DNA of 64,000 nt from Agelas oroides. Its lineage: Eukaryota > Porifera > Demospongiae > Agelasida > Agelasidae. The position numbers were made by a program, and so were the translations under genes. The stretch lies in contig OX422198.1 of assembly GCA_949130485.1 (NCBI GenBank), positions 4,341,262 through 4,405,261 on the forward strand. Reading direction: 5' to 3'. The notes under the pieces were generated by a model. It was not told the origin of the DNA, did no database searches, and was given only the letters and a program-made list of their open reading frames with translations. Shown piece by piece: positions 9,394 to 59,880 of this stretch (position 1 is the first letter of the stretch; each line of letters opens with the position of its first letter).

Positions 9394-9449
9394 GACTCTA
9401 CTTGGCTCTCCTTGACTCTACCACACTCTACCATGGCTCTACTTGGCTC

Positions 9450-21364: not shown

Positions 21365-24300
21365 CTACATGACTCTATTACATTCTACCATGGCTCTACT
21401 TGACTCTCCTTGAGTCCACTACACTCTACCTTGGCTCTACTTGGCTCTACTTGACTCTACTACACACTATCATGGCTCTACTTGGCTCTACTACACTCTA
21501 CCATGGCTCTACTTGGCTGTACTTGTCTCTACTACACTCTACCATGGCTCTACCTGGCTCTACTGCATTCTATCATGGCTCTACTTGACTCTAAATGACT
21601 CTACTACGTTCTACCATTGCTCTACTTGACTCTACTACATTCTACGATGGCTGTACTTGGCTCTACTTGACTCTACTACACTATACCATTGCTAGACCTG
21701 GCTCTCCTTGTCTCTACTACACTCTACCTTAGTTCTTCTACATCCTACCATGGATCCACGTGACTCTTCTTGACTCTACTACACTCTACCATGGTTCTAC
21801 CTGGCTCTACTACATTCTACCATGGCTCTACTTGACTCTAAATGACTCTACTACATTCTACCATGGCTCTACTTGACTCTACTTGACTCTACCACACTCA
21901 ACCATGGCTCTACTTGGCTCTACTTGACTCTACTACTCTATACCATTGCTAGACCTGGCTCTACTTGTCTCTACTTCACTCTACCTTAGCTGTACTACAT
22001 CCTACCATGGATCCACGTGACTCTACTTGACTCTACTACACTCTACCATGGCTCTACCTGGCTCTACTACATTCTACCATGGCTCTACTTGACTCTACAT
22101 GACTCTACTACATTCTACCATGGCTCTCCTTGACTCTGCTTGAGTCCACTACACTCTACCTTGGCTTTACGTGGCTCTACTTGACTATACTACACACTAC
22201 CATGACTGTACTTGGCTCTACTACACTCTACCATGGCTCTAGTTTGCTCTACTTGACTCTACTACACTCTACCTCGTCTTTACCACATTCTATACCATAG
22301 CTCTACTTGACTCTACTTGACTCTACTACATTCTACCATGGCCCTACTTACTCTACGTGACTGTACTACACTCTACCTTGGCTCTACTACATTCTGCTAT
22401 GGGTGCACGTGACTCTACTTGACTCTACTGCATTCTACCATGGCTCTACCTTGATCTACTACATTCTACCATGGCTCTACTTGGCTCTACATGACTCTAC
22501 TACATGCTACCATGGCTCTACTTGACTCTACATGACCCTACTACACTCACCATGGCTCTACTCCATTGTACCATGGCTCTACTTCACACTACATCACTCT
22601 ACTACATTCTACCATGGCTCTACTTGTCTCTACATGACTGTACTACCTGCTACCGTGGCTCTCCCCAATTGTACAATGGTTCTACTTGACACTACAAGAT
22701 TCTACTACATTCTACCATGGCTCTACTTGACTCTACTTGACTCTACTAGACTATACCATTGCTCGACCTGGCTCTACTTGTCTCTACTTCACTCTGACTT
22801 GGCTCTACTGCATCCTACCATGGATCCACGTGAATCTACTTGACTCTACTACACTCTACCATCGCTATTCCTGGCTCTACTACATTCTACCATGGCTATA
22901 CTTGACTCTACATGACTCTATTACATTCTACCATGGCTCTACGTGACTCTCCTTGAGTCCACTACACTCTACCTTGGCTCTACTTGACTCTCCTACACAC
23001 TGCCATGGCTCTACTTGGCTCTACTACACTCTACCATGGCTCTACTTGGCTGTACTTGACTCTACTACACTATACCACGGCTCTACTCCATTGTACCATG
23101 GCTCTACTTGACACTACATTACTCTCCTACATTCTACCATGGCTCTACTTTACTCTACTACATTCTACGATGGCTGTACTTGGCTCTACTTGACTCTACT
23201 ACACTATACCATTGCTAGACATTGCTCTACTTGTCTCTACTTCACTCTACCTTGGCTCTACTACATCCTACCATGGATCAACGTGACTCTACTTGACTCT
23301 ACTACACTCTACCATGGCTCTACCTGGCTCTACTACATTCTACCATCGCTCTACTTCACTCTACATGACTCTACTACATTCTACCATGGCTCTACTTGAC
23401 TCTACTTGAGTCCACTACACTCTTCCTTGGCTCTACTTGGCTCTACTTGACTCTACTACACACTACCATGGCTCAACTTGGCTATACTACACTCTACCAT
23501 GGCTCTACTTGGCTCTACTTGACTCTACTACACTCTACCATATCTCTCCTACATTCGACCATGGCTCCACGTGACTCTACTTGATTTTCTACTACATTCT
23601 ACCATTGCTCTACTTGACTCTGCTTGAGTCCACTACACTCTACCTTGGCTCTACTTGGCTCTACTTGACTCTACTACACACTACCATGGCTCTACATGGC
23701 TCTACTTGATTCTACTACACTCTACTATTGCTAGTCCTGGCTGTACTTGTCCCTACTACACTCTACCTTGCATCTACTACATCCTACCATGGATCCACAT
23801 GACTCTACTTGACTGTACTACACTCTACCATGGCTCTACTCCATTGTACCATGGCTCTACTTGACACTACATCACTCTACTACATTCTACCATGGCTCTA
23901 CTTGTCTCTACATGACTCTACTACATCCTACCGTTGCTCTACCCCATTGTACCATGGCTCTACTTCACACTACATGATTCTACTAAATTCTACCATGGCT
24001 CTTCCTGACTCTACTTGACTCTCCTACACCGTACCTTTGCTCTACTTCGCTGTACTTGACACTACTACACTCTACCATGGATCTACTCCATTCTATACCA
24101 TGGCTCTACTACACACTACATGGCTCTACTACATTCTACCATTGTTCCAATTGAATCTACTACATTCTACCATGACTCTACTTGGCTCTACTTGACTCTA
24201 CAACACTCTACCATGGCTCTACTTGGCTCTACTTGACTCTACTACACTCTACCATGGCTCTACTCCATTGTACCATGGCTCTACTTGACACTACATGACT

Positions 24301-26423
24301 CTACTACATTCTACCATGGCTCCACTTGACTCCACTACACTATACCATTGCTAGACCTGGCTCTCCTTGTGTCTACTACACTCTACCTTGGCTCTACTAC
24401 ATCCTACCATGGATCCACGTGACTCTACTTGACTCTACTACACTCTACCATCGCTCTACCTGGCTCTACTACATTCTACCATGGCTCTACTTGACTCTAC
24501 ATGACTCTATTACATTCTACCATGGCTGTACTTGGCTCTCCTTGAGTCCACTACACTCTACCTTAGCTCTACTTGGCTCTACTTGACTCTCCTACACACT
24601 ACCATTGCTCTACTTGGCTCTACTACACTCTACCATGGCTCTACTTGTTTGTACTTGACTCTACTACACTATACCATGGCTCTACTCCATTGTACCATGG
24701 CTCTACTTGACACTACATGACTCTCCTACATTCTACCATGGCTCTACTTGACTCTACTACATTCTACGATGGCTGTACATGGCTCTACTTGACTCTACTA
24801 CACTATACCATTCCTATACCTGGCTCTACTTGTCTCTACTTCACCCTACCTTGGCTCTACTACATCCTACCATGGATCAACGTGACTCTACTTGACTCTA
24901 CTACACTCTACCATGGCTCTACCTGGCTCTACTACATTCTACCATGGCTCTACTTGACTCTACTTGAGTCCTCTACCCTCTACCTTGTCTCTACTTGGCT
25001 CTACTTCACTCTACTAAACACTACCATGGCTCAACTTGGCTATACAACACTCTACCATGGCTCTACTTCGCTCTACTTGACTCTACTACACTCTTCCTTG
25101 TCTCTACTACATTCTACCAATGCTCCACGTGACTCTACTTGACTCTACTACACTCTACCATTGCTCTACTCCAATTTACCATTGCTCTACTTGACACTAC
25201 ATCACTCTACTACATTCTACCATGGCTCTACTTGACTCTAAATGACTCTACTACATTCTACCATGCCTCTACTTGACTCTGCTTCAGTCCACTACACTCT
25301 ACCTTGGCTCTACTTGGCTCTACTTGACTCTACTACACACTACCATGGCTCTATTTGGCTCTACTTGACTCTACTACACTCTACCATTGCTAGACCTGGC
25401 TCTACTTGTCCCTACTACACTCTACCTTACATCAACTACATCCTACCATGGATCCACGTGACTCTACTTGACTCTACTACACTCTACCATGGCTCTACTC
25501 CATTGTACAATGACTCTACTTGACACTACATCACTCTACTACATTCTACCATGTCTCTACTTGTCTCTACATGACTCTACTACACTCTACCATGGCTCTA
25601 CTCCATTGTACAATGGCTCTACTTGATACTACATCACTCTACTACATTCTACCATGGCTCTACTTGTCTCTACATGACTCTACTACATGCTACTGTGGCT
25701 CTACCACTTTGTACCATGGCTCTACTTGACACTACATGATTCTACTAAATTCTACCATTCTTCTTCCTGACTCTACTTGATTCTCCTACACTCTACCGTT
25801 GCTCTACTTGGCTGTACTTGACACTACTACACTCTAACATGGCTCTACTCCATTCTATACCATGGCTCTACTTCACACTACATGGCTCTACTACATTCTA
25901 CCATTGTTCCAATTGAATCTACTACTTTCTACCATGACTCTACTTGGCTCTCCTTGACTCTACCACACTCTACCATGGCTCTACTTGGCTCTACTTGACT
26001 CTACTACACTCTACCACGGTTCTACTCCATTGTACCATGGCTCTACTTCACACTACATGACTCTACTACATTCTACCATGGCTCTACTTGACTCTACTAC
26101 ACACTACGATGGCTCTACTTGGCTCTACTTGACTCTACTACACTATACCATTGCTAGACCTGGCTCTCCTTGTCTCTACTACATTCTACCTTGGCTCTAC
26201 TACATCCTACCATGGATCCACGTGACTCTACTTGACTCTACTACACTCTACCATGGCTCTACCTGGCTCTACTACATTCTTCCATGGCTCTACTTGACTC
26301 TACTTGACTCTACTACACTCTACCATGGCTCTACTTGGCTCTACTTCACTCTACTACACTATACCATTGCTAGACCTGGCTCTACTTGTCTGTACTTAAC
26401 TCTACCTTAGCTGTATATACTAC

Positions 26424-26433
26424 ATCGTACGAT
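26424..26433. other. Perfect 10-bp palindrome in module B
   Basis: ATCGTACGAT reads the same on both strands. It replaces the usual ATCCTACCAT and is preceded by a 4-base TATA gain (CTGTATATACTAC instead of CTGTACTAC). The same pair of changes is found at 34853-34862, 50640-50649 and 62732-62741, once in module B of cycles 1, 2, 4 and 5. It is absent from cycle 3, which lacks that part of B. It is a useful module B marker; a function is not shown. Confidence 0.85.
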
Positions 26434-27586
26434 GGATCGACGTGACTCTACTTGACTCTACTACACTCTACCATGGCTCTACCTGGCTCTACTACATTCT
26501 ATCATGGCTCTACTTGACTCTACATGACTCTACTACATTCTACCATGGCTCTACTTGACTCTACTTGAGTCCACTACACTCTACCTTGGTTCTACTTTGC
26601 TCTACTTGACTCTACTACACACTACCATGGCTGTACTTGGCTCTACTACACTCTACCATGGCTCTACTTTGCTCTACTTGATTCTACTATACTCTACCAT
26701 GTCTCTACCACATTCTACCATAGCTCTACTTGACTCTACTTGACTCTACTACATTCTGCCATGGCTCTACTTGACTCTACGTGACTGTACTACACTCTAC
26801 CTTGGCTCTACTACATTCTGCTATGGCTCCACATGACTCTACTTGACTCTACTGCATTCTACCATCGCTCTACCTTCCTCTACTACATTCTACCATGGCT
26901 CTACTTGACTCTGCATGACCCTACTACACTATACCATGGCTCTACTCCATTGTACCATGGCTCTACTTGACACTACATGACTCTCCTACATTCTACCATG
27001 TCTCTACTACATTCTACCAAAGCTCAACGTGATTCTACATCATTCTACTACATCCTACCATTCCTCTACTTGACTCTGTATGCCTCTACTACATTCTACC
27101 ATGGCTCTACTTCACTCTACTACATTCTACGATGGCTCTACTTTGCTCTACTTGACTCTACTACACTATACCATTGCTAGACCTGGCTCTACGTGTTCCT
27201 ACTACACTCTACCTTGACTCTACTACATCCTACCATGGATCCACGTGACTCTACTTGACTCTACTGCACTCTACCATGGCTCTACTCCATTGTACTATGG
27301 CTGTACTTGACACTACATCACTCTACTACATTCTACCATGGCTCTTCTTGTCTATACATGACTCTACTACATGCTACCGTGGCTCTACCCCATTGTACCA
27401 TGGCTCTACTTGACACTACATGATTCTACTAAATACTGCCATCGTTCTTCCTGACTCTACTTGACTCTCCTACACTCTACCGTTGCTCTACTTGACTCTA
27501 CTTGACACTACTACACTCTACCATGGCTCTACTCCATTCTATACCATGGCTCTACTTCTTACTACATGGCTCTACTACATTCTACC

Positions 27587-27590
27587 ATTG
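27587..27590 (+). repeat. Module C marker: 9-bp deletion at ATTG
   Basis: Most modules read CCATTGTTCCAATTGAATC. Here the sequence is CCATTGAATC, a loss of 9 bp between two ATTG tetranucleotides. The same deleted form is at 36016, 40722, 43362, 51803, 53978 and 56618, always downstream of CTTCTTACTACATGG. It is a shared derived mark of module C. Confidence 0.88.
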
Positions 27591-28170
27591 AATCTACTAC
27601 ATTCTACCATGACTCTACCTGGCTCTCCTTGACTCTACCACACTCTACCATGGCTCTACATGGCTCTACTTGACTCTACTATACTCTACCATGGCTCTAC
27701 TCCATTGTACCATGGCTCTACTTGACACTACATGACTCTACTACATTCTACCATGGCTCTACTTGACTCTACTACACACTACGATGGGTCTACTTGACTC
27801 TACTTGACTCTACTACACTATACCATTCCTCGACCTGGCTCTACTTCTCTCTACTTCACTCTACCTTGGCTCTACTGCATCCTACCATGGATCCACGTGT
27901 CTCTACTTGATTCTACTACACTCTACCATCGCTCTACCTGGCTCTACTACATTCTACCATGGCTCTACTTGACTCTACATGACTCTATTACATTCTACCA
28001 TGGCTCTACTAGACTCTCCTTGAGTCCACTACACTCTACCTTGGCTCTACTTGGCTCTACTTGACTCTCCTACACACTGCCATGGCTCTACTTGGCTTTA
28101 CCACACTCTACCATGGCTCTACTTGGCTCTACTTGACTCTACTACATTCTACCATGGCTCTACTCCATTG

Positions 28171-28327
28171 TACTTGGCTCTCCTTGACTCTACCACACTC
28201 TACCATGGCTCTACTTGGCTCTACTTGACTCTACTACACTCTACCACGGTTCTACTCCATTGTACCATGGCTCTACTTCACACTACATGACTCTACTACA
28301 TTCTACCATGGCTCTACTTGACTCTAC
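28171..28327 (+). repeat. 157-bp patch of module B sequence inside module C
   Basis: These bases look identical to 25941-26097, offset 2230, including the CCACGGTTC variant and the CTTCACACTACATGAC form specific to cycle 1. On the left the patch abuts CTCCATTG of module C; on the right it passes into CACACTCAACCATGG of module C. The other copies of module C (for example 36590-36915) have about 325 bp of different sequence at this place. Confidence 0.82.
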
Positions 28328-28938
28328 CACACTCAACCATGGCTCTACTTGGCTCTACTTGACTCTACTACTCTATACAATTGCTAGACCTGGCTCTACT
28401 TGTCTCTACTTCACTCTACCTTAGCTGTACTACATCCTACCATGGATCCACGTGACTCTACTTGACTCTACTACACTCTACCATGGCTCTACCTGGCTCT
28501 ACTACATTCTACCATGGCTCTACTTGACTCTACATGACTCTACTACATTCTACCATGGCTCTCCTTGACTCTGCTTGAGTCCACTACACTCTACCTTGGC
28601 TTTACGTGGCTCTACTTGACTATACTACACACTACCATGACTGTACTTGGCTCTACTACACTCTACCATGGCTCTAGTTTGCTCTACTTGACTCTACTAT
28701 ACTCTACCTCGTCTTTACCACATTCTATACCATAGCTCTACTTGACTCTACTTGACTCTACTACATTCTACCATGGCCCTACTTACTCTACGTGACTGTA
28801 CTACACTCTACCTTGGCTCTACTACATTCTGCTATGGGTGCACGTGACTCTACTTGACTCTACTGCATTCTACCATGGCTCTACCTTGATCTACTACATT
28901 CTACCATGGCTCTACTTGGCTCTACATGACTCTACTAC

Positions 28939-31900
28939 ATGCTACCGTGGCTCTACTTGACTCTACATGACCCTACTACACTCACCATGGCTCTACTCCA
29001 TTGTACCATGGCTCTACTTCACACTACATCACTCTACTACATTCTACCATGGCTCTACTTGTCTCTACATGACTGTACTACCTGCTACCGTGGCTCTCCC
29101 CAATTGTACAATGGTTCTACTTGACACTACAAGATTCTACTACATTCTACCATGGCTCTACTTGACTCTACTTGACTCTACTAGACTATACCATTGCTCG
29201 ACCTGGCTCTACTTGTCTCTACTTCACTCTGACTTGGCTCTACTGCATCCTACCATGGATCCACGTGAATCTACTTGACTCTACTACACTCTACCATCGC
29301 TATTCCTGGCTCTACTACATTCTACCATGGCTATACTTGACTCTACATGACTCTATTACATTCTACCATGGCTCTACGTGACTCTCCTTGAGTCCACTAC
29401 ACTCTACCTTGGCTCTACTTGACTCTCCTACACACTGCCATGGCTCTACTTGGCTCTACTACACTCTACCATGGCTCTACTTGGCTGTACTTGACTCTAC
29501 TACACTATACCACGGCTCTACTCCATTGTACCATGGCTCTACTTGACACTACATTACTCTCCTACATTCTACCATGGCTCTACTTTACTCTACTACATTC
29601 TACGATGGCTGTACTTGGCTCTACTTGACTCTACTACACTATACCATTGCTAGACATTGCTCTACTTGTCTCTACTTCACTCTACCTTGGCTCTACTACA
29701 TCCTACCATGGATCAACGTGACTCTACTTGACTCTACTACACTCTACCATGGCTCTACCTGGCTCAACTACATTCAACAATCGCTCTACTTCACTCTACA
29801 TGACTCTACTACATTCTACCATGGCTCTACTTGACTCTACTTGAGTTCACTACACTCTACCTTGGCTCTACTTGGCTCTACTTGACTCTACTACACACTA
29901 CCATGGCTCAACTTGGCTATACTACACTCTACCATGGCTCTACTTGGCTCTACTTGACTCTACTACACTCTACCATATCTCTCCTACATTCGACCATGGC
30001 TCCACGTGACTCTACTTGATTTTCTACTACATTCTACCATTGCTCTACTTGACTCTGCTTGAGTCCACTACACTCTACCTTGGCTCTACTTGGCTCTACT
30101 TGACTCTACTACACACTACCATGGCTCTACGTGGCTCTACTTGATTCTACTACACTCTACCATTGCTAGTCCTGGCTCTACTTGTCCCTACTACACTCTA
30201 CCTTGCATCTACTACATCCTACCATGGATCCACATGACTCTACTTGACTCTACTACTCTCTACCATGGCTCTACTCCATTGTACCATGGCTCTACTTGAC
30301 ACTACATCACTCTACTACATTCTACCATGGCTCTACTTGTCTCTACATGACTCTACTACATCCTACCGTTGCTCTACCCCATTGTACCATGGCTCTACTT
30401 CACACTACATGATTCTACTAAATTCTACCATGGCTCTTCCTGACTCTACTTGACTCTCCTACACCGTACCGTTGCTCTACTTCGCTGTACTTGACACTAC
30501 TACACTCTACCATGGATCTACTCCATTCTATACCATGGCTCTACTACACACTACATGGCTCTACTACATTCTACCATTGTTCCAATTGAATCTACTACAT
30601 TCTACCATGACTCTACTTGGCTCTACTTGACTCTACCACACTCTACCATGGCTCTACTTGGCTCTACTTGACTCTACTACACTCTACCATGGCTCTACTT
30701 GACACTACATGACTCTACTACATTCTACCATGGCTCCACTTGACTCTACTACACTATACCATTGCTAGACTTGGCTCTCCTTGTGTCTACTACACTCTAC
30801 CTTGGCTCTACTACATCCTACCATGGATCCACGTGACTCTACTTGACTCTACTACACTCTACCATGACTCTTCCTGGCTCTACTACATTCTACCATGGCT
30901 CTCCTTGACTCTACATGACTCTACTACATTCTACCATGGCTCTACTTGACTCTTCTTCAGTCCACTACACTCTACCTTGGCTCTACTTGTCTCTACTTGA
31001 CTTTACTACACACTACCATGGCTGAACTTGGCTCTACTACACTCTACCATGGCTCTACTTTGCTCTACTTGACTCTACTACACTCTACCATGTCTCTACC
31101 ACATTCTACCATAGCTCTACTTGACTCTACTTGACTCTACAACATTCTGCCATGGCTCTACTTACTCTACGTGACTGTACTACACTCTACCTTTGCTCTA
31201 CTACATTCTGCTATGGCTCCACGTGACTCTACTTGACTCTACTGCATTCTACCATGGATCTACCTTACTCTACTACATTCTACCATGGCTCTACTTGGCT
31301 CTACATGACTCTACTACATGCTACCGTGGCACTACTTGACTCTACATGACCCTACTACACTCTACCTTGGCTCTACTCCATTGTACCATGGCTCTACTTC
31401 ACACTACATCACTCTACTACATTCTACCATAGCTCACTTGTCTCTACATGACTCTACTACATGCTACAGTGGCTCTACCCAATTGTACAATGGCTCTACT
31501 TGACACTACATGATTCTACTACATTCTACCATGGGTCTAGTTGACTCTACTTCACTCTACTATACTATACCATTGGTAGACCTGGCTCTACTTGTCTCTA
31601 CTTCACTCTACCTTGGCTCTAGTGCATCCTTCCATGGATCCACATGACTCCACTTGACTCTACTACACTCTACCATCGCTCTACCTGGCTCTACTACATT
31701 CTACCATGGCTCTACTTGACTCTACATGACTCTATTACATTCTACCATGGCTGTACTTGGCTCTCCTTGAGTCCACTACACTCTACCTTGGCTCTACTTG
31801 GCTCTACTTGACTCTCCTACACACTACCATGGCTCTACTTGGCTCTACTACACTCTACCATGGCTCTACTTGGTTGTACTTGACTCTACTACACTATACC

Positions 31901-34900
31901 ATGGCTCTACTCCATTGTACCATGGCTCTACTTGACACTACATGACTCTCCTACATTCTACCATGGCTCTACTTGACTCTACTACATTCTACGATGGCTG
32001 TACATGGCTCTACTTGACTCTACTACACTATACCCTTCCTATACCTGGCTCTACTTGTCTCTACTTCACCCTACCTTGGCTCTACTACATCCTACCATGG
32101 ATCAACGTGACTCTACTTGACTCTACTACACTCTACCATGGCTCTACCTGGCTCTACTTCATTCTGCCATGGCTCTACTTGACTCTACGTGACTGTACTA
32201 CACTCTACCTTGGCTCTACTACATTCTGCTATGGCTCCACATGACTCTACTTGACTCTACTGCATTCTACCATCGCTCTACCTTCCTCTACTACATTCTA
32301 CCATGGCTCTACTTGACTCTGCATGACCCTACTACACTATACCATGGCTCTATTCCATTGTACCATGGCTCTACTTGACACTACATGACTCTATTACATT
32401 CTACCATGGCTGTACTTGGCTCTCCTTGAGTCCACTACACTCTACCTTGGCTCTACTTGGCTCTACTTGACTCTCCTACACACTACCATGGCTCTACTTG
32501 GCTCTACTACACTCTACCATGGCTCTACTTGGTTCTACTTGACTCTACTACACTATACCATGGCTCTACTTGACTCTACTACATTCTACGATGGCTGTAC
32601 ATGGCTCTACTTGACTCTACTACACTATACCCTTCCTATACCTGGCTCTACTTGTCTCTACTTCACCCTACCTTGGCTCTACTACATCCTACCATGGATC
32701 AACGTGACTCTACTTGACTCTACTACACTCTACCATGGCTCTACCTGGCTCTACTTCATTCTGCCATGGCTCTACTTGACTCTACGTGACTGTACTACAC
32801 TCTACCTTGGCTCTACTACATTCTGCTATGGCTCCACATGACTCTACTTGACTCTACTGCATTCTACCATCGCTCTACCTTCCTCTACTACATTCTACCA
32901 TGGCTCTACTTGACTCTGCATGACCCTACTACACTATACCATGGCTCTATTCCATTGTACCATGGCTCTACTTGACACTACATGACTCTATTACGTTCTA
33001 CCATGGCTGTACTTGGCTCTCCTTGAGTCCACTACACTCTACCTTGGCTCTACTTGGCTCTACTTGACTCTCCTACACACTACCATGGCTCTACTTGGCT
33101 CTACTACACTCTACCATGGCTCTACTTGGTTCTACTTGACTCTACTACACTATACCATGGCTCTACTTGACTCTACTACATTCTACGATGGCTGTACATG
33201 GCTCTACTTGACTCTACTACACTATACCCTTCCTATACCTGGCTCTACTTGTCTCTACTTCACCCTACCTTGGCTCTACTACATCCTACCATGGATCAAC
33301 GTGACTCTACTTGACTCTACTACACTCTACCATGGCTCTACCTGGCTCTACTACATTCTACCATGGCTCTACTTGGCTCTACAAGACTCTACTACATTCT
33401 ACCATGGCTCTACTTGACTCTACTTGAGTCCTCTACCCTCTACCTTGTCTCTACTTGGCTCTACTTTACTCTACTAAACACTACCATGGCTCAACTTGGC
33501 TATACAACACTCTACCATGGCTCTACTTCGCTCTACTTGACTCTACTACACTCTTCCTTGTCTCTACTACATTCTACCAATGCTCCACGTGACTCTACTT
33601 GACTCTACTACACTCTACCATTGCTCTACTCCAATTTACCATTGCTCTACTTGACACTACATCACTCTACTACATTCTACCATGGCTCTACTTGACTCTA
33701 AATGACTCTACTACATTCTACCATGCCTCTACTTGACTCTGCTTCAGTCCACTACACTCTACCTTGGCTCTACTTGGCTCTACTTGACTCTACTACACTC
33801 TACCATTGCTAGACCTGGCTCTACTTGTCCCTACTACACTCTACCTTACATCAACTACATCCTACCATGGATCCACGTGACTCTACTTGACTCTACTACA
33901 CTCTACCATGGCTCTACTCCATTGTACAATGACTCTACTTGACACTACATCACTCTACTACATTCTACCATGTCTCTACTTGTCTCTACATGACTCTACT
34001 ACACTCTACCATGGCTCTACTCCATTGTACAATGGCTCTACTTGATACTACATCACTCTACTACATTCTACCATGGCTCTACTTGTCTCTACATGACTCT
34101 ACTACATGCTACTGTGGCTCTACCCCATTGTACCATGGCTCTACTTGACACTACATGATTCTACTAAATTCTACCATGCTTCTTCCTGACTCTACTTGAT
34201 TCTCCTACACTCTACCGTTGCTCTCCTTGGCTGTACTTGACACTACTACACTCTAACTTGGCTCTACTCCATTCTATACCATGGCTCAACTTCACACTAC
34301 ATGGCTCTACTACATTCTACCATTGTTCCAATTGAATCTACTACTTTCTACCATGACTCTACTTGGCTGTACTTGACTCTACCACACTCTACCATGGCTC
34401 TACTTGGCTCTACTTGACTCTACTACACTCTACCACGGTTCTACTCAATTGTACCATGGCTCTACTTGACACTACATGACTCTGCTACATTCTACCATGG
34501 CTCTACTTGACTCTACAACACACTACGATGGCTCTACTTGGCTCTACTTGGCTCTACTTGACTCTACTACACTATACCATTGCTAGACCTGGCTCTCCTT
34601 GTCTCTACTACATTCTACCTTGGCTCTACTACATCCTACCATGGATCCGCGTGACTCTACTTGACTCTACTACACTCTACCATGGCTCTACCTGGCTCTA
34701 CTACATTCTTCCATGGCTCTACTTGACTCTACTTGACTCTACTACACTCTACCATGGCTCTACTTGGCTCTACTTCACTCTACTACACTATACCATTGCT
34801 AGACCTGGCTCTACTTGTCTGTACTTAACTCTACCTTAGCTGTATATACTACATCGTACGATGGATCCACGTGACTCTACTTGACTCTACTACACTCTAC

Positions 34901-38604: not shown

Positions 38605-38625
38605 TCTACTTGATTCTACTACACT
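38605..38625 (+). repeat. Deletion junction in cycle 3 module A (125 bp missing)
   Basis: In cycles 1, 2, 4 and 5 the string CTACTTGATTTTCTACTAC is followed by about 125 bp before a second CTACTTGATTCTACTAC. Cycle 3 has a single CTACTTGATTCTACTACAC, so the stretch between the two similar strings has been lost. The offset to cycle 2 changes here from 8594 to 8469. Confidence 0.82.
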
Positions 38626-40300: not shown

Positions 40301-40568
40301 CACTACCATGGCTCTACTTGGCTCTACTACACTCTACCATGGCTCTACTTGGTTGTACTTGACTCTACTACACTATACCATGGCTCTACTCCATTGTACC
40401 ATGGCTCTACTTGACACTACATGACTCTCCTACACACTACCATGGCTCTACTTGGCTCTACTACACTCTACCATGGCTCTACTTGGTTGTACTTGACTCT
40501 ACTACACTATACCATGGCTCTACTCCATTGTACCATGGCTCTACTTGACACTACATGATTCTACTAAA
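40301..40568 (+). repeat. 134-bp tandem duplication
   Basis: The string beginning CACTACCATGG at 40301 starts again at 40435, offset 134, including the TTGGTTGTACTTGAC landmark. It sits next to the point where module B breaks off into module C, so it may be a by-product of that rearrangement. Confidence 0.8.
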
Positions 40569-46500: not shown

Positions 46501-46624
46501 CCAATTGAATCTACTACATTCTACCATGACTCTACTTGGCTCTACTTGACTCTACCACACTCTACCATGGCTCTACTTGGCTCTACTTGACTCTACTACA
46601 CTCTACCATGGCTCTACTCCATTG
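40525..46624 (+). repeat. 6.1-kb segment repeated at 13256-bp spacing, copy 1
   Basis: From CCATTGTACC at about 40524 to about 46624 the sequence matches 53781-59880 at a constant offset of 13256. The match spans the end of cycle 3 and the start of cycle 4, so it ignores the module borders. A few substitutions were seen, for example CTCTACTTGAC near 41861 against CTCTCCTTGAC near 55117, and a three-base difference near 45685. Confidence 0.85.
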
Positions 46625-47039
46625 TACAATGGCTCTACTTGACACTACATCACTCTACTACATTCTACCATGGCTCTACTTGTCTCTACATGACTCTACT
46701 ACATCCTACCGTTGCTCTACCCCATTGTACCATGGCTCTACTTCACACTACATGATTCTACTAAATTCTACCATGGCTCTTCCTGACTCTACTTGACTCT
46801 CCTACACCGTACCGTTGCTCTACTTCGCTGTACTTGACACTACTACACTCTACCATGGATCTACTCCATTCTATACCATGGCTCTACTACACACTACATG
46901 GCTCTACTACATTCTACCATTGTTCCAATTGAATCTACTACATTCTACCATGACTCTACTTGGCTCTACTTGACTCTACCACACTCTACCATGGCTCTAC
47001 TTGGCTCTACTTGACTCTACTACACTCTACCATGGCTCT
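46200..47039 (+). repeat. 424-bp tandem duplication in cycle 4 only
   Basis: Units at about 46200-46623 and 46624-47039. The rare strings GTTCCAATTGAATC and TAAATTCTACCATGG each occur twice with offset 424. TACCATGG in the first unit is TACAATGG in the second (46625). Cycles 1, 2, 3 and 5 have a single copy here. Confidence 0.88.
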
Positions 47040-48099
47040 ACTTGACACTACATGACTCTACTACATTCTACCATGGCTCCACTTGACTCTACTACACTAT
47101 ACCATTGCTAGACTTGGCTCTCCTTGTGTCTACTACACTCTACCTTGGCTCTACTACATCCTACCATGGATCCACGTGACTCTACTTGACTCTACTACAC
47201 TCTACCATGACTCTTCCTGGCTCTACTACATTCTACCATGGCTCTCCTTGACTCTACATGACTCTACTACATTCTACCATGGCTCTACTTGACTCTTCTT
47301 CAGTCCACTACACTCTACCTTGGCTCTACTTGTCTCTACTTGACTTTACTACACACTACCATGGCTGTACTTGGCTCTACTACACCCTACCATGGCTCTA
47401 CTTTGCTCTACTTGACTCTACTACACTCTACCATGTCTCTACCACATTCTACCATAGCTCTACTTGACTCTACTTGACTCTACAACATTCTGCCATGGCT
47501 CTACTTACTCTACGTGACTGTACTACACTCTACCTTTGCTCTACTACATTCTGCTATGGCTCCACGTGACTCTACTTGACTCTACTGCATTCTACCATGG
47601 ATCTACCTTACTCTACTACATTCTACCATGGCTCTACTTGGCTCTACATGACTCTACTACATGCTACCGTGGCTCTACTTGACTCTACATGACCCTACTA
47701 CACTCTACCTTGGCTCTACTCCATTGTACCATGGCTCTACTTCACACTACATCACTCTACTACATTCTACCATAGCTCACTTGTCTCTACATGACTCTAC
47801 TACATGCTACCGTGGCTCTACCCAATTGTACAATGGCTCTACTTGACACTACATGATTCTACTACATTCTACCATGGGTCTAGTTGACTCTACTTCACTC
47901 TACTATACTATACCATTGGTAGACCTGGCTCTACTTGTCTCTACTTCACTCTACCTTGGCTCTAGTGCATCCTTCCATGGATCCACATGACTCCACTTGA
48001 CTCTACTACACTCTACCATCGCTCTACCTGGCTCTACTACATTCTACCATGGCTCTACTTGACTCTACATGACTCTATTACATTCTACCATGGCTGTAC

Positions 48100-49060
48100 T
48101 TGGCTCTCCTTGAGTCCACTACACTCTACCTTGGCTCTACTTGGCTCTACTTGACTCTCCTACACACTACCATGGCTCTACTTGGCTCTACTACACTCTA
48201 CCATGGCTCTACTTGGTTGTACTTGACTCTACTACACTATACCATGGCTCTACTCCATTGTACCATGGCTCTACTTGACACTACATGACTCTCCTACATT
48301 CTACCATGGCTCTACTTGACTCTACTACATTCTACGATGGCTGTACATGGCTCTACTTGACTCTACTACACTATACCCTTCCTATACCTGGCTCTACTTG
48401 TCTCTACTTCACCCTACCTTGGCTCTCCTACATCCTACCATGGATCAACGTGACTCTACTTGACTCTACTACACTCTACCATGGCTCTACCTGGCTCTAC
48501 TTCATTCTGCCATGGCTCTACTTGACTCTACGTGACTGTACTACACTCTACCTTGGCTCTACTACATTCTGCTATGGCTCCACATGACTCTACTTGACTC
48601 TACTGCATTCTACCATCGCTCTACCTTCCTCTACTACATTCTACCATGGCTCTACTTGACTCTGCATGACCCTACTACACTATACCATGGCTCTATTCCA
48701 TTGTACCATGGCTCTACTTGACACTACATGACTCTATTACATTCTACCATGGCTGTACTTGGCTCTCCTTGAGTCCACTACACTCTACCTTGGCTCTACT
48801 TGGCTCTACTTGACTCTCCTACACACTACCATGGCTCTACTTGGCTCTACTACACTCTACCATGGCTCTACTTGGTTCTACTTGACTCTACTACACTATA
48901 CCATGGCTCTACTTGACTCTACTACATTCTACGATGGCTGTACATGGCTCTACTTGACTCTACTACACTATACCCTTCCTATACCTGGCTCTACTTGTCT
49001 CTACTTCACCCTACCTTGGCTCTACTACATCCTACCATGGATCAACGTGACTCTACTTGA
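48100..49060 (+). repeat. 659-bp expansion inside module B, about 1.5 copies
   Basis: Units start at 48100 and 48759, offset 659, matching the first two unit starts of cycle 2 (31757 and 32416). The third unit seen in cycle 2 is absent, which accounts for the change of offset between the two cycles from 16343 to 15746. Confidence 0.85.
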
Positions 49061-50830
49061 CTCTACTACACTCTACCATGGCTCTACCTGGCTCTACTAC
49101 ATTCTACCATGGCTCTACTTGGCTCTACAAGACTCTACTACATTCTACCATGGCTCTACTTGACTCTACTTGAGTCCTCTACCCTCTACCTTGTCTCTAC
49201 TTGGCTCTACTTTACTCTACTAAACACTACCATGGCTCAACTTGGCTATACAACACTCTACCATGGCTCTACTTCGCTCTACTTGACTCTACTACACTCT
49301 TCCTTGTCTCTACTACATTCTACCAATGCTCCACGTGACTCTACTTGACTCTACTACACTCTACCATTGCTCTACTCCAATTTACCATTGCTCTACTTGA
49401 CACTACATCACTCTACTACATTCTACCATGGCTCTACTTGACTCTAAATGACTCTACTACATTCTACCATGCCTCTACTTGACTCTGCTTCAGTCCACTA
49501 CACTCTACCTTGGCTCTACTTGGCTCTACTTGACTCTACTACACACTACCATGGCTCTATTTGGCTCTACTTGACTCTACTACACTCTACCATTGCTAGA
49601 CCTGGCTCTACTTGTCCCTACTACACTCTACCTTACATCAACTACATCCTACCATGGATCCACGTGACTCTACTTGACTCTACTACACTCTACCATGGCT
49701 CTACTCCATTGTACAATGACTCTACTTGACACTACATCACTCTACTACATTCTACCATGTCTCTACTTGTCTCTACATGACTCTACTACACTCTACCATG
49801 GCTCTACTCCATTGTACAATGGCTCTACTTGATACTACATCACTCTACTACATTCTACCATGGCTCTACTTGTCTCTACATGACTCTACTACATGCTACT
49901 GTGGCTCTACCCCATTGTACCATGGCTCTACTTGACACTACATGATTCTACTAAATTCTACCATGCTTCTTCCTGACTCTACTTGATTCTCCTACACTCT
50001 ACCGTTGCTCTACTTGGCTGTACTTGACACTACTACACTCTAACTTGGCTCTACTCCATTCTATACCATGGCTCTACTTCACACTACATGGGTCTACTAC
50101 ATTCTACCATTGTTCCAATTGAATCTACTACTTTCTACCATGACTCTACTTGGCTGTACTTGACTCTACCACACTCTACCATGGCTCTACTTGGCTCTAC
50201 TTGACTCTACTACACTCTACCACGGTTCTACTCAATTGTACCATGGCTCTACTTGACACTACATGACTGTGCTACATTCTACCATGGCTCTACTTGACTC
50301 TACAACACACTACGATGGCTCTACTTGGCTCTACTTGGCTCTACTTGACTCTACTACACTATACCATTGCTAGACCTGGCTCTCCTTGTCTCTACTACAT
50401 TCTACCTTGGCTCTACTACATCCTACCATGGATCCGCGTGACTCTACTTGACTCTACTACACTCTACCATGGCTCTACCTGGCTCTACTACATTCTTCCA
50501 TGGCTCTACTTGACTCTACTTGACTCTACTACACTCTACCATGGCTCTACTTGGCTCTACTTCACTCTACTACACTATACCATTGCTAGACCTGGCTCTA
50601 CTTGTCTGTACTTAACTCTACCTTAGCTGTATATACTACATCGTACGATGGATCCAAGTGACTCTACTTGACTCTACTACACTCTACCATGGCTCTACCT
50701 GGCTCTACTACATTCTACCATGGCTCTACTTGACTCTACATGACTCTACTACATTCTACCATGGCTCTACTTGACTCTACTTGAGTCCACTACACTCTAC
50801 CTTGGCTCTACTTTGCTCTACTTGACTCTA

Positions 50831-53005
50831 CTACACACTACCATGGCTGTACTTGGCTCTACTACACTCTACCATGGCTCTACTTTGCTCTACTTGATTC
50901 TACTACACTCTACCATGTCTCTACCACATTCTACCATAGCTCTACTTGACTCTACTGGACTCTATTACATTCTGCCATGGCTCTACTTGACTCTACGTGA
51001 CTGTACTACACTCTACCTTGGCTCTACTACATTCTGCTATGGCTCCACATGACTCTACTTGACTCTACTGCATTCTACCATCGCTCTACCTTCCTCTACT
51101 ACATTCTACCATGGCTCTACTTGACTCTGCATGACCCTACTACACTATACCATGGCTCTATTCCATTGTACCATGGCTCTACTTGACACTACATGACTCT
51201 CCTACATTCTACCATGTCTCTACTACATTCTACCAAAGCTCAACGTGATTCTACATCATTCTACTACATCCTACCATTCCTCTACTTGACTCTGTATGCC
51301 TCTACTACATTCTACCATGGCTCTACTTCACTCTACTACATTCTACGATGGCTCTACTTTGCTCTACTTGACTCTACTACACTATACCATTGCTAGACCT
51401 GGCTCTACGTGTTCCTACTACACTCTACCTTGACTCTACTACATCCTACCATGGATCCACGTGACTCTACTTGACTCTACTGCACTCTACCATGGCTCTA
51501 CTCCATTGTACTATGGCTGTACTTGACACTACATCACTCTACTACATTCTACCATGGCTCTTCTTGTCTATACATGACTCTACTACATGCTACCGTGGCT
51601 CTACCCCATTGTACCATGGCTCTACTTGACACTACATGATTCTACTAAATACTGCCATCGTTCTTCCTGACTCTACTTGACTCTCCTACACTCTACCGTT
51701 GCTCTACTTGACTCTACTTGACACTACTACACTCTACCATGGCTCTACTCCATTCTATACCATGGCTCTACTTCTTACTACATGGCTCTACTACATTCTA
51801 CCATTGAATCTACTACATTCTACCATGACTCTACCTGGCTCTCCTTGACTCTACCACACTCTACCATGGCTCTACATGGCTCTACTTGACTCTACTATAC
51901 TCTACCATGGCTCTACTCCATTGTACCATGGCTCTACTTGACACTACATGACTCTACTACATTCTACCATGGCTCTACTTGACTCTACTACACACTACGA
52001 TGGGTCTACTTGACTCTACTTGACTCTACTACACTATACCATTCCTCGACCTGGCTCTACTTCTCTCTACTTCACTCTACCTTGGCTCTACTGCATCCTA
52101 CCATGGATCCACGTGTCTCTACTTGATTCTACTACACTCTACCATCGCTCTACCTGGCTCTACTACATTCTACCATGGCTCTACTTGACTCTACATGACT
52201 CTATTACATTCTACCATGGCTCTACTTGACTCTCCTTGAGTCCACTACACTCTACCTTGGCTCTACTTGGCTCTACTTGACTCTCCTACACACTGCCATG
52301 GCTCTACTTGGCTTTACCACACTCTACCATGGCTCTACTTGGCTCTACTTGACTCTACTACATTCTACCATGGCTCTACTCCATTGTACCATGGTTCTAC
52401 TTGAAACTACATGACTCTACTACATTCTACCTTGGCTCTACTTGACTCTACTACACACTATGATGGCTCTCCTTGGCTCTACTAGACTCTACTACACTAT
52501 ACCATTGCTAGACCTGGCTCTCCTTGTCTCTACTACACTCTACCTTAGTTCTTCTACATCCTACCATGGATCCACGTTACTCTTCTTGACTCTACTACAC
52601 TCTACCATGGTTCTACCTGGCTCTACTACATTCTACCATGGCTCTACTTGACTCTAAATGACTCTACTACATTCTACCATGGCTCTACTTGACTCTACTT
52701 GACTCTACCACACTCAACCATGGCTCTACTTGGCTCTACTTGACTCTACTACTCTATACCATTGCTAGACCTGGATCTACTTGTCTCTACTTCACTCTAC
52801 CTTAGCTGTACTACATCCTACCATGGATCCACGTGACTCTACTTGACTCTACTACACTCTACCATGGCTCTACCTGGCTCTACTACATTCTACCATGGCT
52901 CTACTTGACTCTACATGACACTACTACATTCTACCATGGCTCTCCTTGACTCTGCTTGAGTCCACTACACTCTACCTTGGCTTTACGTGGCTCTACTTGA
53001 CTCTA
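50831..53005 (+). repeat. 2175-bp tandem duplication, copy 1
   Basis: Segments at 51193, 52020, 52226 and 52442 all recur exactly 2175 bp later. The copy covers the later part of module B and most of module C. The breakpoints are fixed only to within about 20 bp because they lie in common units. Confidence 0.88.
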
Positions 53006-55180
53006 CTACACACTACCATGGCTGTACTTGGCTCTACTACACTCTACCATGGCTCTACTTTGCTCTACTTGATTCTACTACACTCTACCATGTCTCTACC
53101 ACATTCTACCATAGCTCTACTTGACTCTACTGGACTCTATTACATTCTGCCATGGCTCTACTTGACTCTACGTGACTGTACTACACTCTACCTTGGCTCT
53201 ACTACATTCTGCTATGGCTCCACATGACTCTACTTGACTCTACTGCATTCTACCATCGCTCTACCTTCCTCTACTACATTCTACCATGGCTCTACTTGAC
53301 TCTGCATGACCCTACTACACTATACCATGGCTCTATTCCATTGTACCATGGCTCTACTTGACACTACATGACTCTCCTACATTCTACCATGTCTCTACTA
53401 CATTCTACCAAAGCTCAACGTGATTCTACATCATTCTACTACATCCTACCATTCCTCTACTTGACTCTGTATGCCTCTACTACATTCTACCATGGCTCTA
53501 CTTCACTCTACTACATTCTACGATGGCTCTACTTTGCTCTACTTGACTCTACTACACTATACCATTGCTAGACCTGGCTCTACGTGTTCCTACTACACTC
53601 TACCTTGACTCTACTACATCCTACCATGGATCCACGTGACTCTACTTGACTCTACTGCACTCTACCATGGCTCTACTCCATTGTACTATGGCTGTACTTG
53701 ACACTACATCACTCTACTACATTCTACCATGGCTCTTCTTGTCTATACATGACTCTACTACATGCTACCGTGGCTCTACCCCATTGTACCATGGCTCTAC
53801 TTGACACTACATGATTCTACTAAATACTGCCATCGTTCTTCCTGACTCTACTTGACTCTCCTACACTCTACCGTTGCTCTACTTGACTCTACTTGACACT
53901 ACTACACTCTACCATGGCTCTACTCCATTCTATACCATGGCTCTACTTCTTACTACATGGCTCTACTACATTCTACCATTGAATCTACTACATTCTACCA
54001 TGACTCTACCTGGCTCTCCTTGACTCTACCACACTCTACCATGGCTCTACATGGCTCTACTTGACTCTACTATACTCTACCATGGCTCTACTCCATTGTA
54101 CCATGGCTCTACTTGACACTACATGACTCTACTACATTCTACCATGGCTCTACTTGACTCTACTACACACTACGATGGGTCTACTTGACTCTACTTGACT
54201 CTACTACACTATACCATTCCTCGACCTGGCTCTACTTCTCTCTACTTCACTCTACCTTGGCTCTACTGCATCCTACCATGGATCCACGTGTCTCTACTTG
54301 ATTCTACTACACTCTACCATCGCTCTACCTGGCTCTACTACATTCTACCATGGCTCTACTTGACTCTACATGACTCTATTACATTCTACCATGGCTCTAC
54401 TTGACTCTCCTTGAGTCCACTACACTCTACCTTGGCTCTACTTGGCTCTACTTGACTCTCCTACACACTGCCATGGCTCTACTTGGCTTTACCACACTCT
54501 ACCATGGCTCTACTTGGCTCTACTTGACTCTACTACATTCTACCATGGCTCTACTCCATTGTACCATGGTTCTACTTGAAACTACATGACTCTACTACAT
54601 TCTACCTTGGCTCTACTTGACTCTACTACACACTATGATGGCTCTCCTTGGCTCTACTAGACTCTACTACACTATACCATTGCTAGACCTGGCTCTCCTT
54701 GTCTCTACTACACTCTACCTTAGTTCTTCTACATCCTACCATGGATCCACGTTACTCTTCTTGACTCTACTACACTCTACCATGGTTCTACCTGGCTCTA
54801 CTACATTCTACCATGGCTCTACTTGACTCTAAATGACTCTACTACATTCTACCATGGCTCTACTTGACTCTACTTGACTCTACCACACTCAACCATGGCT
54901 CTACTTGGCTCTACTTGACTCTACTACTCTATACCATTGCTAGACCTGGATCTACTTGTCTCTACTTCACTCTACCTTAGCTGTACTACATCCTACCATG
55001 GATCCACGTGACTCTACTTGACTCTACTACACTCTACCATGGCTCTACCTGGCTCTACTACATTCTACCATGGCTCTACTTGACTCTACATGACACTACT
55101 ACATTCTACCATGGCTCTCCTTGACTCTGCTTGAGTCCACTACACTCTACCTTGGCTTTACGTGGCTCTACTTGACTATA
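53006..55180 (+). repeat. 2175-bp tandem duplication, copy 2
   Basis: The left junction is chimeric. CTTTACGTGGCTCTACTTGA at 52981-53000 belongs to the module C type also seen near 55156, while the following CACTACCATGGCTGTAC belongs to the module B type seen near 50836. The copy appears near-identical to the first through the ACTCTAAATGAC and TGGATCTACTTGTC landmarks. Confidence 0.88.
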
Positions 55181-58100
55181 CTACACACTACCATGACTGT
55201 ACTCGGCTCTACTACACTCTACCATGGCTCTAGTTTGCTCTACTTGACTCTACTACACTCTACCTCGTCTTTACCACATTCTATACCATAGCTCTACTTG
55301 ACTCTACTTGGCTCTACTACATTCTACCATGGCTCTACTTGACTCTACATGACTCTATTACATTCTACCATGGCTGTACTTGGCTCTCCTTGAGTCCACT
55401 ACACTCTACCTTGGCTCTACTTGGCTCTACTTGACTCTCCTACACACTACCATGGCTCTACTTGGCTCTACTACACTCTACCATGGCTCTACTTGGTTGT
55501 ACTTGACTCTACTACACTATACCATGGCTCTACTCCATTGTACCATGGCTCTACTTGACACTACATGACTCTCCTACATTCTACCATGGCTCAACTTGAC
55601 TCTACTACATTCTACGATGGCTGTACATGGCTCTACTTGACTCTACTACACTATACCCTTCCTATACCTGGCTCTACTTGTCTCTACTTCACCCTACCTT
55701 GGATCTACTACATCCTACCATGGATCAACGTGACTCTACTTGACTCTACTACACTCTACCATGGCTCTACCTGGCTCTACTTCATTCTGCCATGGCTCTA
55801 CTTGACTCTACGTGACTGTACTACACTCTACCTTGGCTCTACTACATTCTGCTATGGCTCCACATGACTCTACTTGACTCTACTGCATTCTACCATCGCT
55901 CTACCTTCCTCTACTACATTCTACCATGGCTCTACTTGACTCTGCATGACCCTACTACACTATACCATGGCTCTATTCCATTGTACCATGGCTCTACTTG
56001 ACACTACATGACTCTCCTACATTCTACCATGTCTCTACTGCATTCTACCAAAGCTCAACGTGATTCTACATCATTCTACTACATCCTACCATTCCTGTAC
56101 TTGACTCTGTATGCCTCTACTACATTCTACCATGGCTCTACTTCACTCTACTACATTCTACGATGGCTCTACTTTGTTCTACTTGACTCTACTACACTAT
56201 ACCATTGCTAGACCTGGCTCTACGTGTTCCTACTACACTCTACCTTGACTCTACTACATCCTACCATGGATCCACGTGACTCTACTTGACTCTACTGCAC
56301 TCTACCATGGCTCTACTCCATTGTACTATGGCTGTACTTGACACTACATCACTCTACTACATTCTACCATGGCTCTTCTTGTCTATACATGACTCTACTA
56401 CATGCTACCGTGGCTCTACCCCATTGTACCATGGCTCTACTTGACACTACATGATTCTACTAAATACTGCCATCGTTCTTCCTGACTCTACTTGACTCTC
56501 CTACACTCTACCGTTGCTCTACTTGACTCTACTTGACACTACTACACTCTACCATGGCTCTACTCCATTCTATACCATAGCTCTACTTCTTACTACATGG
56601 CTCTACTACATTCTACCATTGAATCTACTACATTCTACCATGACTCTACCTGGCTCTCCTTGACTCTACCACACTCTACCATGGCTCTACATGGCTCTAC
56701 TTGACTCTACTATACTCTACCATGGCTCTACTTGACACTACATGACTCTACTACATTCTACCATGGCTCTACTTGACTCTACTACACACTACGATGGGTC
56801 TACTTGACTCTACTTGACTCTACTACACTATACCATTCCTCGACCTGGCTCTACTTCTCTCTACTTCACTCTACCTTGGCTCTACTGCATCCTACCATGG
56901 ATCCACGTGTCTCTACTTGATTCTACTACACTCTACCATCGCTCTACCTGGCTCTACTACATTCTACCATGGCTCTACTTGACTCTACATGACTCTATTA
57001 CATTCTACCATGGCTCTACTTGACTCTCCTTGAGTCCACTACACTCTACCTTGGCTCTACTTGGCTCTACTTGACTCTCCTACACACTGCCATGGCTCTA
57101 CTTGGCTTTACCACACTCTACCATGGCTCTACTTGGCTCTACTTGACTCTACTACATTCTACCATGGCTCTACTCCATTGTACCATGGTTCTACTTGAAA
57201 CTACATGACTCTACTACATTCTACCTTGGCTCTACTTGACTCTACTACACACTATGATGGCTCTCCTTGGCTCTACTTGACTCTACTACACTATACCATT
57301 GCTAGACCTGGCTCTCCTTGTCTCTACTACACTCTACCTTAGTTCTTCTACATCCTACCATGGATCCACGTTACTCTTCTTGACTCTACTACACTCTACC
57401 ATGGTTCTACCTGGCTCTACTACATTCTACCATGGCTCTACTTGACTCTAAATGACTCTACTACATTCTACCATGGCTCTACTTGACTCTACTTGACTCT
57501 ACCACACTCAACCATGGCTCTACTTGGCTCTACTTGACTCTACTACTCTATACCATTGCTAGACCTGGATCTACTTGTCTCTACTTCACTCTACCTTAGC
57601 TGTACTACATCCTACCATGGATCCACGTGACTCTACTTGACTCTACTACACTCTACCATGGCTCTACCTGGCTCTACTACATTCTACCATGGCTCTACTT
57701 GACTCTACATGACACTACTACATTCTACCATGGCTCTCCTTGACTCTGCTTGAGTCCACTACACTCTACCTTGGCTTTACGTGGCTCTACTTGACTATAC
57801 TACACACTACCATGACTGTACTTGGCTCTACTACACTCTACCATGGCTCTAGTTTGCTCTACTTGACTCTACTACACTCTACTTCGTCTTTACCACATTC
57901 TATACCATAGCTCTACTTGACTCTACTTGACTCTACTACATTCTACCATGGCCCTACTTACTCTACGTGACTGTACTACACTCTACCTTGGCTCTACTAC
58001 ATTCTGCTATGGGTGCACGTGACTCTACTTGACTCTACTGCATTCTACCATGGCTCTACCTTGATCTACTACATTGTACCATGGCTCTACTTGGCTCTAC

Positions 58101-59880
58101 ATGACTCTACTACATGCTACCGTGGCTCTACTTGACTCTACATGACCCTACTACACTCACCATGGCTCTACTCCATTGTACCATGGCTCTACTTCACACT
58201 ACATCACTCTACTACATTCTACCATGGCTCTACTTGTCTCTACATGACTGTACTACCTGCTACCGTGGCTCTCCCCAATTGTACAATGGTTCTACTTGAC
58301 ACTACAAGATTCTACTACATTCTACCATGGCTCTACTTGACTCTACTTGACTCTACTAGACTATACCATTGCTCGACCTGGCTCTACTTGTCTCTACTTC
58401 ACTCTGCCTTGGCTCTACTGCATCCTACCATGGATCCACGTGAATCTACTTGACTCTACTACACTCTACCATCGCTATTCCTGGCTCTACTACATTCTAC
58501 CATGGCTATACTTGACTCTACATGACTCTATTACATTCTACCATGGCTCTACGTGACTCTCCTTGAGTCCACTACACTCTACCTTGGCTCTACTTGACTC
58601 TCCTACACACTGCCATGGCTCTACTTGGCTCTACTACACTCTACCATGGCTCTACTTGGCTGTACTTGACTCTACTACACTATACCACGGCTCTACTCCA
58701 TTGTACCATGGCTCTACTTGACACTACATTACTCTCCTACATTCTACCATGGCTCTACTTTACTCTACTACATTCTACGATGGCTGTACTTGGCTCTACT
58801 TGACTCTACTACACTATACCATTGCTAGACATTGCTCTACTTGTCTCTACTTCACTCTACCTTGGCTCTACTACATCCTACCATGGATCAACGTGACTCT
58901 ACTTGACTCTACTACACTCTACCATGGCTCTACCTGGCTCTACTACATTCTACCATCGCTCTACTTCACTCTACATGACTCTACTACATTCTACCATGGC
59001 TCTACTTGACTCTACTTGAGTCCACTACACTCTACCTTGGCTCTACTTGGCTCTACTTGACTCTACTACACACTACCATGGCTCAACTTGGCTATACTAC
59101 ACTCTACCATGGCTCTACTTGGCTCTACTTGACTCTACTACACTCTACCATATCTCTCCTACATTCGACCATGGCTCCACGTGACTCTACTTGATTTTCT
59201 ACTACATTCTACCATTGCTCTACTTGACTCTGCTTGAGTCCACTACACTCTACCTTGGCTCTACTTGGCTCTACTTGACTCTACTACACACTACCATGGC
59301 TCTACGTGGCTCTACTTGATTCTACTACACTCTACCATTGCTAGTCCTGGCTCTACTTGTCCCTACTACACTCTACCTTGCATCTACTACATCCTACCAT
59401 GGATCCACATGACTCTACTTGACTCTACTACACTCTACCATGGCTCTACTCCATTGTACCATGGCTCTACTTGACACTACATCACTCTACTACATTCTAC
59501 CATGGCTCTACTTGTCTCTACATGACTCTACTACATCCTACCGTTGCTCTACCCCATTGTACCATGGCTCTACTTCACACTACATGATTCTACTAAATTC
59601 TACCATGGCTCTTCCTGACTCTACTTGACTCTCCTACACCGTACCGTTGCTCTACTTCACTGTACTTGACACTACTACACTCTACCATGGATCTACTCCA
59701 TTCTATACCATGGCTCTACTACACACTACATGGCTCTACTACATTCTACCATTGTTCCAATTGAATCTACTACATTCTACCATGACTCTACTTGGCTCTA
59801 CTTGACTCTACCACACTCTACCATGGCTCTACTTGGCTCTACTTGACTCTACTACACTCTACCATGGCTCTACTCCATTG
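53781..59880 (+). repeat. 6.1-kb segment repeated at 13256-bp spacing, copy 2
   Basis: Partner of 40525-46624. It spans the end of cycle 4 and the start of cycle 5. After 59880 the cycle 5 sequence follows the arrangement of cycle 1 (near 24271) rather than the 424-bp duplication of cycle 4. Confidence 0.85.

Follow-up and report, generated by a model that had tools for sequence, protein, structure and literature searches.

Introduction

Unequal crossover and gene conversion are long-standing models of satellite DNA evolution (PMC8122249, excerpted text). For human alpha-satellite higher-order repeats, the available part of a 2010 study in BMC Genomics describes subsets defined by shared variant nucleotides and explains them by unequal crossover with superimposed conversion (PMC2853522). 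In the cores of maize centromeres, a four-gamete test and a minimum number of exchanges were used to show exchange (PMC2834711, in the portion at hand), and four-gamete tests have also been applied to Y-linked gene families (PMC8794474, likewise a partial text). Here we describe a 64,000-bp stretch of contig C16 of the sponge Agelas oroides (the window, G000:C16:4341262-4405261, from an assembly of 259 Mb in 141 contigs), which lies inside a satellite array and contains five near-identical copies of a 1,695-bp block that we call module A. Characters in and beside these copies group them in incompatible ways, and we estimate a probability of about 0.8 that at least one exchange between copies occurred, a figure that does not extend to a second, short exchange tract considered below. 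As judged from the assembled sequence, unequal exchange or conversion most likely made mosaics of copies 4 and 5.

Results

Five copies of module A

Positions are given as r, the distance in bp from a variable base that we call variant 1, and module A spans r=-575 to +1119. The five copies (Table 1) align without gaps and are 99.5-99.7% identical to copy 1, while no other stretch in the 264 kb searched on C16 (the window plus 200 kb) exceeds 91%; farther right, beyond 4,505,261, the contig was covered by 150-base samples only. As in a higher-order repeat, the similarity between blocks far exceeds that between their constituent units. A canonical higher-order-repeat array, with a fixed and regular higher-order unit, was rejected as a description, as the spacings between successive copies are irregular (6,435, 8,594, 7,325 and 13,256 bp). 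The blocks that carry the module are shuffled and partly duplicated. Its left portion is partially copied in three further sequences, X, Y and Z. Copies 4 and 5 lie in 6.1-kb sister blocks, found by exact-word diagonals, in which 8 of the 13 differences fall within r=-507 to 946, about 1.45 of the 6.1 kb. A perfect 414-bp repeat (46205-46618 and 46629-47042, at a distance of 424) lies immediately to the right of copy 4, and this 424-bp duplication displaces the right flank of copy 4 relative to copies 2 and 3.

The original prediction drew attention to two single-base variants within the module. Variant 1, in CTACATT(C/G)TACC, is C at 22466, 28901 and 44820 and G at 37495 and 58076; variant 2, in CTCTG(A/C)CTTGG, is A at 22797, 29232 and 37826 and C at 45151 and 58407. 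All ten bases were read correctly, with the coordinates marking the variant base itself and the motifs as printed starting 7 and 5 bases earlier, respectively. Each variant sits in one identical 24-base surrounding per site across the copies, and in every copy 331 bp separate the two. Copies 1 and 2 carry the combination C-A, copy 3 G-A, copy 4 C-C and copy 5 G-C. From these four combinations, exchange or conversion between the copies had been proposed. That proposal is supported, mainly by characters 1.4-2.0 kb to the left of variant 1 which it did not cite.

Left-flank characters conflict with those of the module

In the left flank, copies 4 and 5 pair with each other. At r=-2036 they share a state that separates them from copies 2, 3, Y and Z, and at r=-1497 one that sets them apart from copies 2, 3, X, Y and Z; these last five also have a 21-bp unit at r=-1359 that is missing from both 4 and 5. 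Closer to and within the module other groupings appear. At -507 an A is common to copy 5, X, Y and Z, and at -362 an A is common to copies 3, 5, X, Y and Z; copy 5 also matches copy 3 at r=0. Copy 4 instead matches copies 1 and 2 at -507, -362 and 0, and agrees with copy 2 alone in a cluster of sites at 865-946. At -798 the three partial copies differ from copies 1, 3, 4 and 5. The characters at -2036, -1497 and -1359 conflict with those at -507, -362, 0 and 865-946 whether or not the site of variant 2 (r=+331) is counted.

Across 12 ordered characters, 27 of the 66 pairs are incompatible, more than recurrent mutation would be expected to give, and at least three exchanges are required (in the intervals -2036 to -507, -362 to 331 and 331 to 865). 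When +331 is omitted, 21 of 55 pairs remain incompatible and at least one exchange is required, in the interval -2036 to -507, which can be narrowed to -1359 to -507 because the character at -1359 is among those that conflict with -507. The best of the 10,395 possible trees, in each of its three forms, needs four extra changes, at -2036, -1497, -1359 and 331; three are still needed without +331, and three without the indel. These counts were compared with a mutation-only null for eight tips (27 changes in 3,360 bp, set to match the data roughly, with three rate models and 4,000 runs under each). At least three extra changes were needed in 0, 0.025 and 0.15% of runs, and at least four in 0 of 4,000 under every model. 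A single duplication tree with ordinary mutation only was rejected on this basis. An order test, which looks for clustering of like sites, gives 0 adjacent conflicts when +331 is left out, where random orders average 3.8 (P=0.002).

Incompatible sites within the module

Module A contains 14 variable sites, of which seven are informative. Sites -362 and 0 group copies 3 and 5, site +331 groups copies 4 and 5, and sites 865, 875, 878 and 946 group copies 2 and 4. The first grouping is compatible with the third, and that of copies 4 and 5 conflicts with both. In the four-gamete test of the five aligned copies, the check suggested with the original prediction, 6 of the 21 informative pairs are incompatible. 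Since every failing pair includes +331, exchange within 330 bp hinges on one nucleotide. Among the characters at r>=-507, the best tree has one extra change, at +331, and none once that site is dropped. The placement of the exchange between sites about 330 bp apart was thus less secure than the exchange itself, as it hangs on variant 2.

We simulated random coalescent trees of five tips without exchange, placing 14 changes in 1,695 bp under four rate models with 8,000 runs each. At least one incompatible informative pair was found in 0.3% (equal rates) to 2.3% (gamma shape 0.1) of runs, and at least six in 0.04-0.24%. A chance match as the origin of the pattern was rejected, given the motif matches and this simulation. 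The result bears on a narrower alternative, in which +331 alone mutated recurrently, no exchange took place between r=0 and 865, and one exchange at r=-1359 to -507 explains the rest. This alternative, which opposes only the second step (a short tract) of the explanation we favor, is less likely than not. It gains from +331 being the sole conflicting site at r>=-507 and from the frequency of a lone recurrent change in simulated eight-copy runs (2.5-22%), although within the five-copy module any conflict, and six conflicting pairs in particular, is as rare as given above. C is the state of most related units: 240 of the 249 near-matches across 184 kb of the array have it, a count that includes copies 4 and 5. 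A is rare, at 6 of 249, three of which are copies 1-3 (3 of 246 when these are excluded). Recurrence would cost one extra change on the unrooted tree, but two by a hand count if C is ancestral, as all eight in-array paralogues suggest. In addition, the pairing of copies 4 and 5 at +331 coincides with their pairing in the left flank, and, provided that it is reliable, an insertion of 21 bp near r=+1800 is likewise at odds with -362 and 0.

The G at variant 1 is commoner among related units than the A at variant 2. G stands at this place in 148 of 1,681 near-matches in the same 184 kb (up to two substitutions, overlapping matches counted), mostly CTCCATTGTACC units, and one CTCCATTGTACC unit with G lies 102 bp downstream of variant 1 in each of the five copies; among exact CTACATT?TACC words, G occurs in only 7 of 1,023. 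Because G is already present in related units, a short local patch could recreate variant 1. Variant 1 could recur and is weaker evidence than its appearance suggests. Site -362 has the same grouping of copies 3 and 5.

Taken further, short-patch copying from unlike neighboring units might have made the shared bases independently, with no exchange between the copies at all. The frequency of G at variant 1, including the unit 102 bp away, fits such copying, as do the A at 865, the T at 946 and the G at 0, which are found elsewhere in matching words of 60, 35 and 29 bases, respectively. The longest words elsewhere with the A at 331, 875 and 878 are, by contrast, just 14, 12 and 11 bases, so no unlike donor is visible for these three sites in the array searched; the words with the A at -362 and -507 reach 79 bases, the upper limit of the search, but are located in the homologous partial copies X, Y and Z. 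We consider it very improbable that short-patch copying produced the pattern.

Evidence weighing against exchange

Several observations weaken the case for exchange between copies. The P value of 0.002 in the order test belongs to the version with linked sites uncollapsed; inclusion of +331 raises P to 0.07, and when linked sites are collapsed as well the result is no longer significant (0.25 and 0.70). At least one extra step arises in 2.5, 10 and 22% of the eight-tip null runs under the three rate models. In one fixed context, 59 places have the 21-bp unit and 146 lack it, so both 21-bp characters could recur and neither is a once-only event. The second of these, the insertion near r=+1800, is in copies 1 and 5 and not in 2, 3 or 4 (where it was sought to the right of the 424-bp duplication of copy 4). 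It was not made one of the 12 main characters, as the unit appears and disappears across the array and the sequence of copy 4 is rearranged at this place; if added, it costs a fifth extra step on the tree, which a single breakpoint leaves unexplained. Data are missing for copy 1 at the three left characters, for X at -2036 and for X, Y and Z at r>=0, and copy 2 carries a deletion between r=-892 and the module. The polarity of +331 is mixed: all 8 in-array paralogues have C, whereas all 4 loci on contig C13 have A. We give more weight to the in-array paralogues because the C13 loci align at only ~73%. The exact 25-base context of +331 on C13 has C only (4 of 4). The occurrence of 865 A, 946 T and 0 G at other places within long matching words belongs on this side as well, as does the outcome of a wider survey described below, in which 7 of 10 block families are conflict-free, two of these having no informative site.

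Errors of the assembly would mimic exchange if reads from near-identical copies had been mis-assigned and bases written into the wrong copy during assembly or polishing. The copies differ from copy 1 by a mere 0.3-0.5%, and the blocks of copies 4 and 5 are 99.8% alike over 6.1 kb, yet the mixture is coherent across sites, with four bases in 82 bp common to copies 2 and 4, and the -507 and -362 alleles are found independently in X, Y and Z. Sites 331 bp apart on one read would not be mixed by a wrong join, although base-level polishing could presumably mix them. On balance, an artefact seems unlikely.

Proposed history of the copies

In the explanation that we favor, the module A copies would be parts of large, irregularly repeated blocks in the satellite array, which multiplied through duplications of several kilobases at a time. 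Exchange between misaligned copies, either by unequal crossover or by copying repair (gene conversion), would then have made copy 4, copy 5 or both mosaic. A breakpoint at r=-1359 to -507 most likely joined a left part of the type seen in copies 4 and 5 to two kinds of right part, and one breakpoint in this interval accounts for all 12 characters except +331. Support for this first step is good, provided that the assembly is correct. A short second tract, located between r=0 and 865, may have carried +331 (C in copies 4 and 5, A in 1, 2 and 3); this step is inferred from one base. A conversion tract would keep flanking markers on both sides, and +331 is the only right-hand marker of the type of copies 4 and 5.

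Conflict elsewhere in the array

The survey used 800-bp segments with at least four copies at 98% identity in 184 kb, giving 520 overlapping segments that were greedily cut to 10 non-overlapping families. At least two informative sites are present in eight families, and conflict is seen in three of the ten: module A and two families located right of the window; at least one other, conflict-free family (22801) is the right part of module A. In window numbering, the two families on the right extend over 75801-125019 (11 copies, 4 of 15 pairs conflicting) and 65820-131944 (8 copies, 25 of 120 pairs). With conflict in three of ten families, fine-scale conflict is not ubiquitous, though the count is small. 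A speculative and rather doubtful extension is that exchange is uneven, with most near-identical block families following plain duplication trees at the 800-bp scale and a few spots such as module A gathering several tracts of a few hundred bases as local conversion hot spots.

The satellite array and its surroundings

The window is satellite DNA, a long head-to-tail array of short units. Tandem arrays cover 5-63990, the top self-match lags are 41, 72, 31 and 103 bp, and neither a closed open reading frame of at least 150 amino acids nor a tRNA gene was found in the 64,000 bp. On C16 the satellite block starts between 4.305 and 4.309 Mb (4-kb bins). It is present in 10 of 10 150-base samples from 4,520,001 to 4,800,001 and in 0 of 4 from 4,900,001 to 5,500,001, so that sampling puts the block at about 0.5-0.6 Mb. 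The satellite has the opposite orientation at ~4,313-4,321 kb, left of the window (4-kb bins), and is also reversed in two 150-base samples, at 4,625,001 and 4,700,001. Related units also occur on contigs C2, C3 and C13 among the first 100 of 300 places listed. Four satellite words of 18-20 bases had no match in literature texts, a search whose coverage leaves out most subscription journals and sequence databases, and the satellite may be undescribed.

Other duplications are present in the left part of the window. A 4.5-kb block occurs twice (4859-9382 and 10496-15019, at a distance of 5,637) with one mismatch (99.98%), and because of that single mismatch this duplication is probably younger than the module A copies. 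A 990-bp tandem duplication (2646-3659 and 3636-4649) has zero mismatches over 1,014 bp. Elsewhere in the assembly, cox1 on C141:14391-18050 is in two pieces with an in-frame TGA, and the frame in between resembles, by eye, a LAGLIDADG enzyme; beyond cox1 follow tRNA-Ser, -Ala and -Cys (ARAGORN) and then a frame that by eye is nad1-like. This arrangement is more in keeping with a sponge than with a cnidarian. A second cox1-like match, without internal stops, lies at C107:16176-16808 and possibly comes from an associated microbe or another organelle.

Table 1 Features of the window (positions in window numbering)
Feature	Position	Strand	Remarks
Satellite array, CTCTACNNNN decamers in 41/31-bp units (by reading)	1..64000	+	whole window inside
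Module A copy 1 (C at 22466, A at 22797)	21891..23585	+	reference copy, r=-575..+1119
Module A copy 2 (C, A), with the r=865-946 cluster	28326..30020	+	99.53% to copy 1; site table
Module A copy 3 (G, A)	36920..38614	+	99.71% to copy 1
Module A copy 4 (C, C), 4/5-type left flank, copy-2-type 865-946 cluster	44245..45939	+	99.59% to copy 1
Module A copy 5 (G, C), 4/5-type left flank; -507 and -362 of X/Y/Z type, 0 of copy-3 type	57501..59195	+	99.59% to copy 1
6.1-kb block with copy 4, sister of 53781-59883	40525..46627	+	13 mismatches in 6,103 bp, offset 13,256
6.1-kb block with copy 5, sister of 40525-46627	53781..59883	+	same comparison
Partial copy X, part matching module A	41404..42054	+	ends near r=-147; likeness extends further left
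Partial copy Y, part matching module A	52485..53002	+	ends near r=-280; likeness extends further left
21-bp unit in copy 3 (in 2, 3, X, Y, Z, not 4, 5)	36131..36151	+	one of several equally good placements
Four-site cluster in copy 4 (r=865, 875, 878, 946)	45685..45766	+	among the five copies only copy 2 shares it (29766-29847)

Discussion

Module A is a small, clear example of a mosaic repeat, in which one nucleotide carries the fine localization and flanking markers carry the exchange itself. If individual reads confirm the bases, the breakpoints would bound the length of an exchange tract in a satellite. Exchange between repeats is ordinary satellite evolution, seen here at fine scale in one assembly, and the locus is a new instance rather than a new kind. 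Schindelhauer and Schwarz (2002), to go by their title, reportedly argued for intrachromosomal conversion in an alpha-satellite array from mapped nucleotide variants; the present array is a different satellite in a different organism. It is like human alpha-satellite arrays in that near-identical long repeats can be grouped by shared variant nucleotides, as the available part of PMC2853522 describes for the latter. Unlike the 171-bp alpha satellite, its sequence is unrelated and built of decamer-based 41/31-bp units; module A is irregularly spaced at 6.4 to 13.3 kb, has five full copies only and is not known to be centromeric. The maize study, in the portion of PMC2834711 at hand, tests the linkage of markers, whereas the test applied to module A compares paralogous copies within one array.

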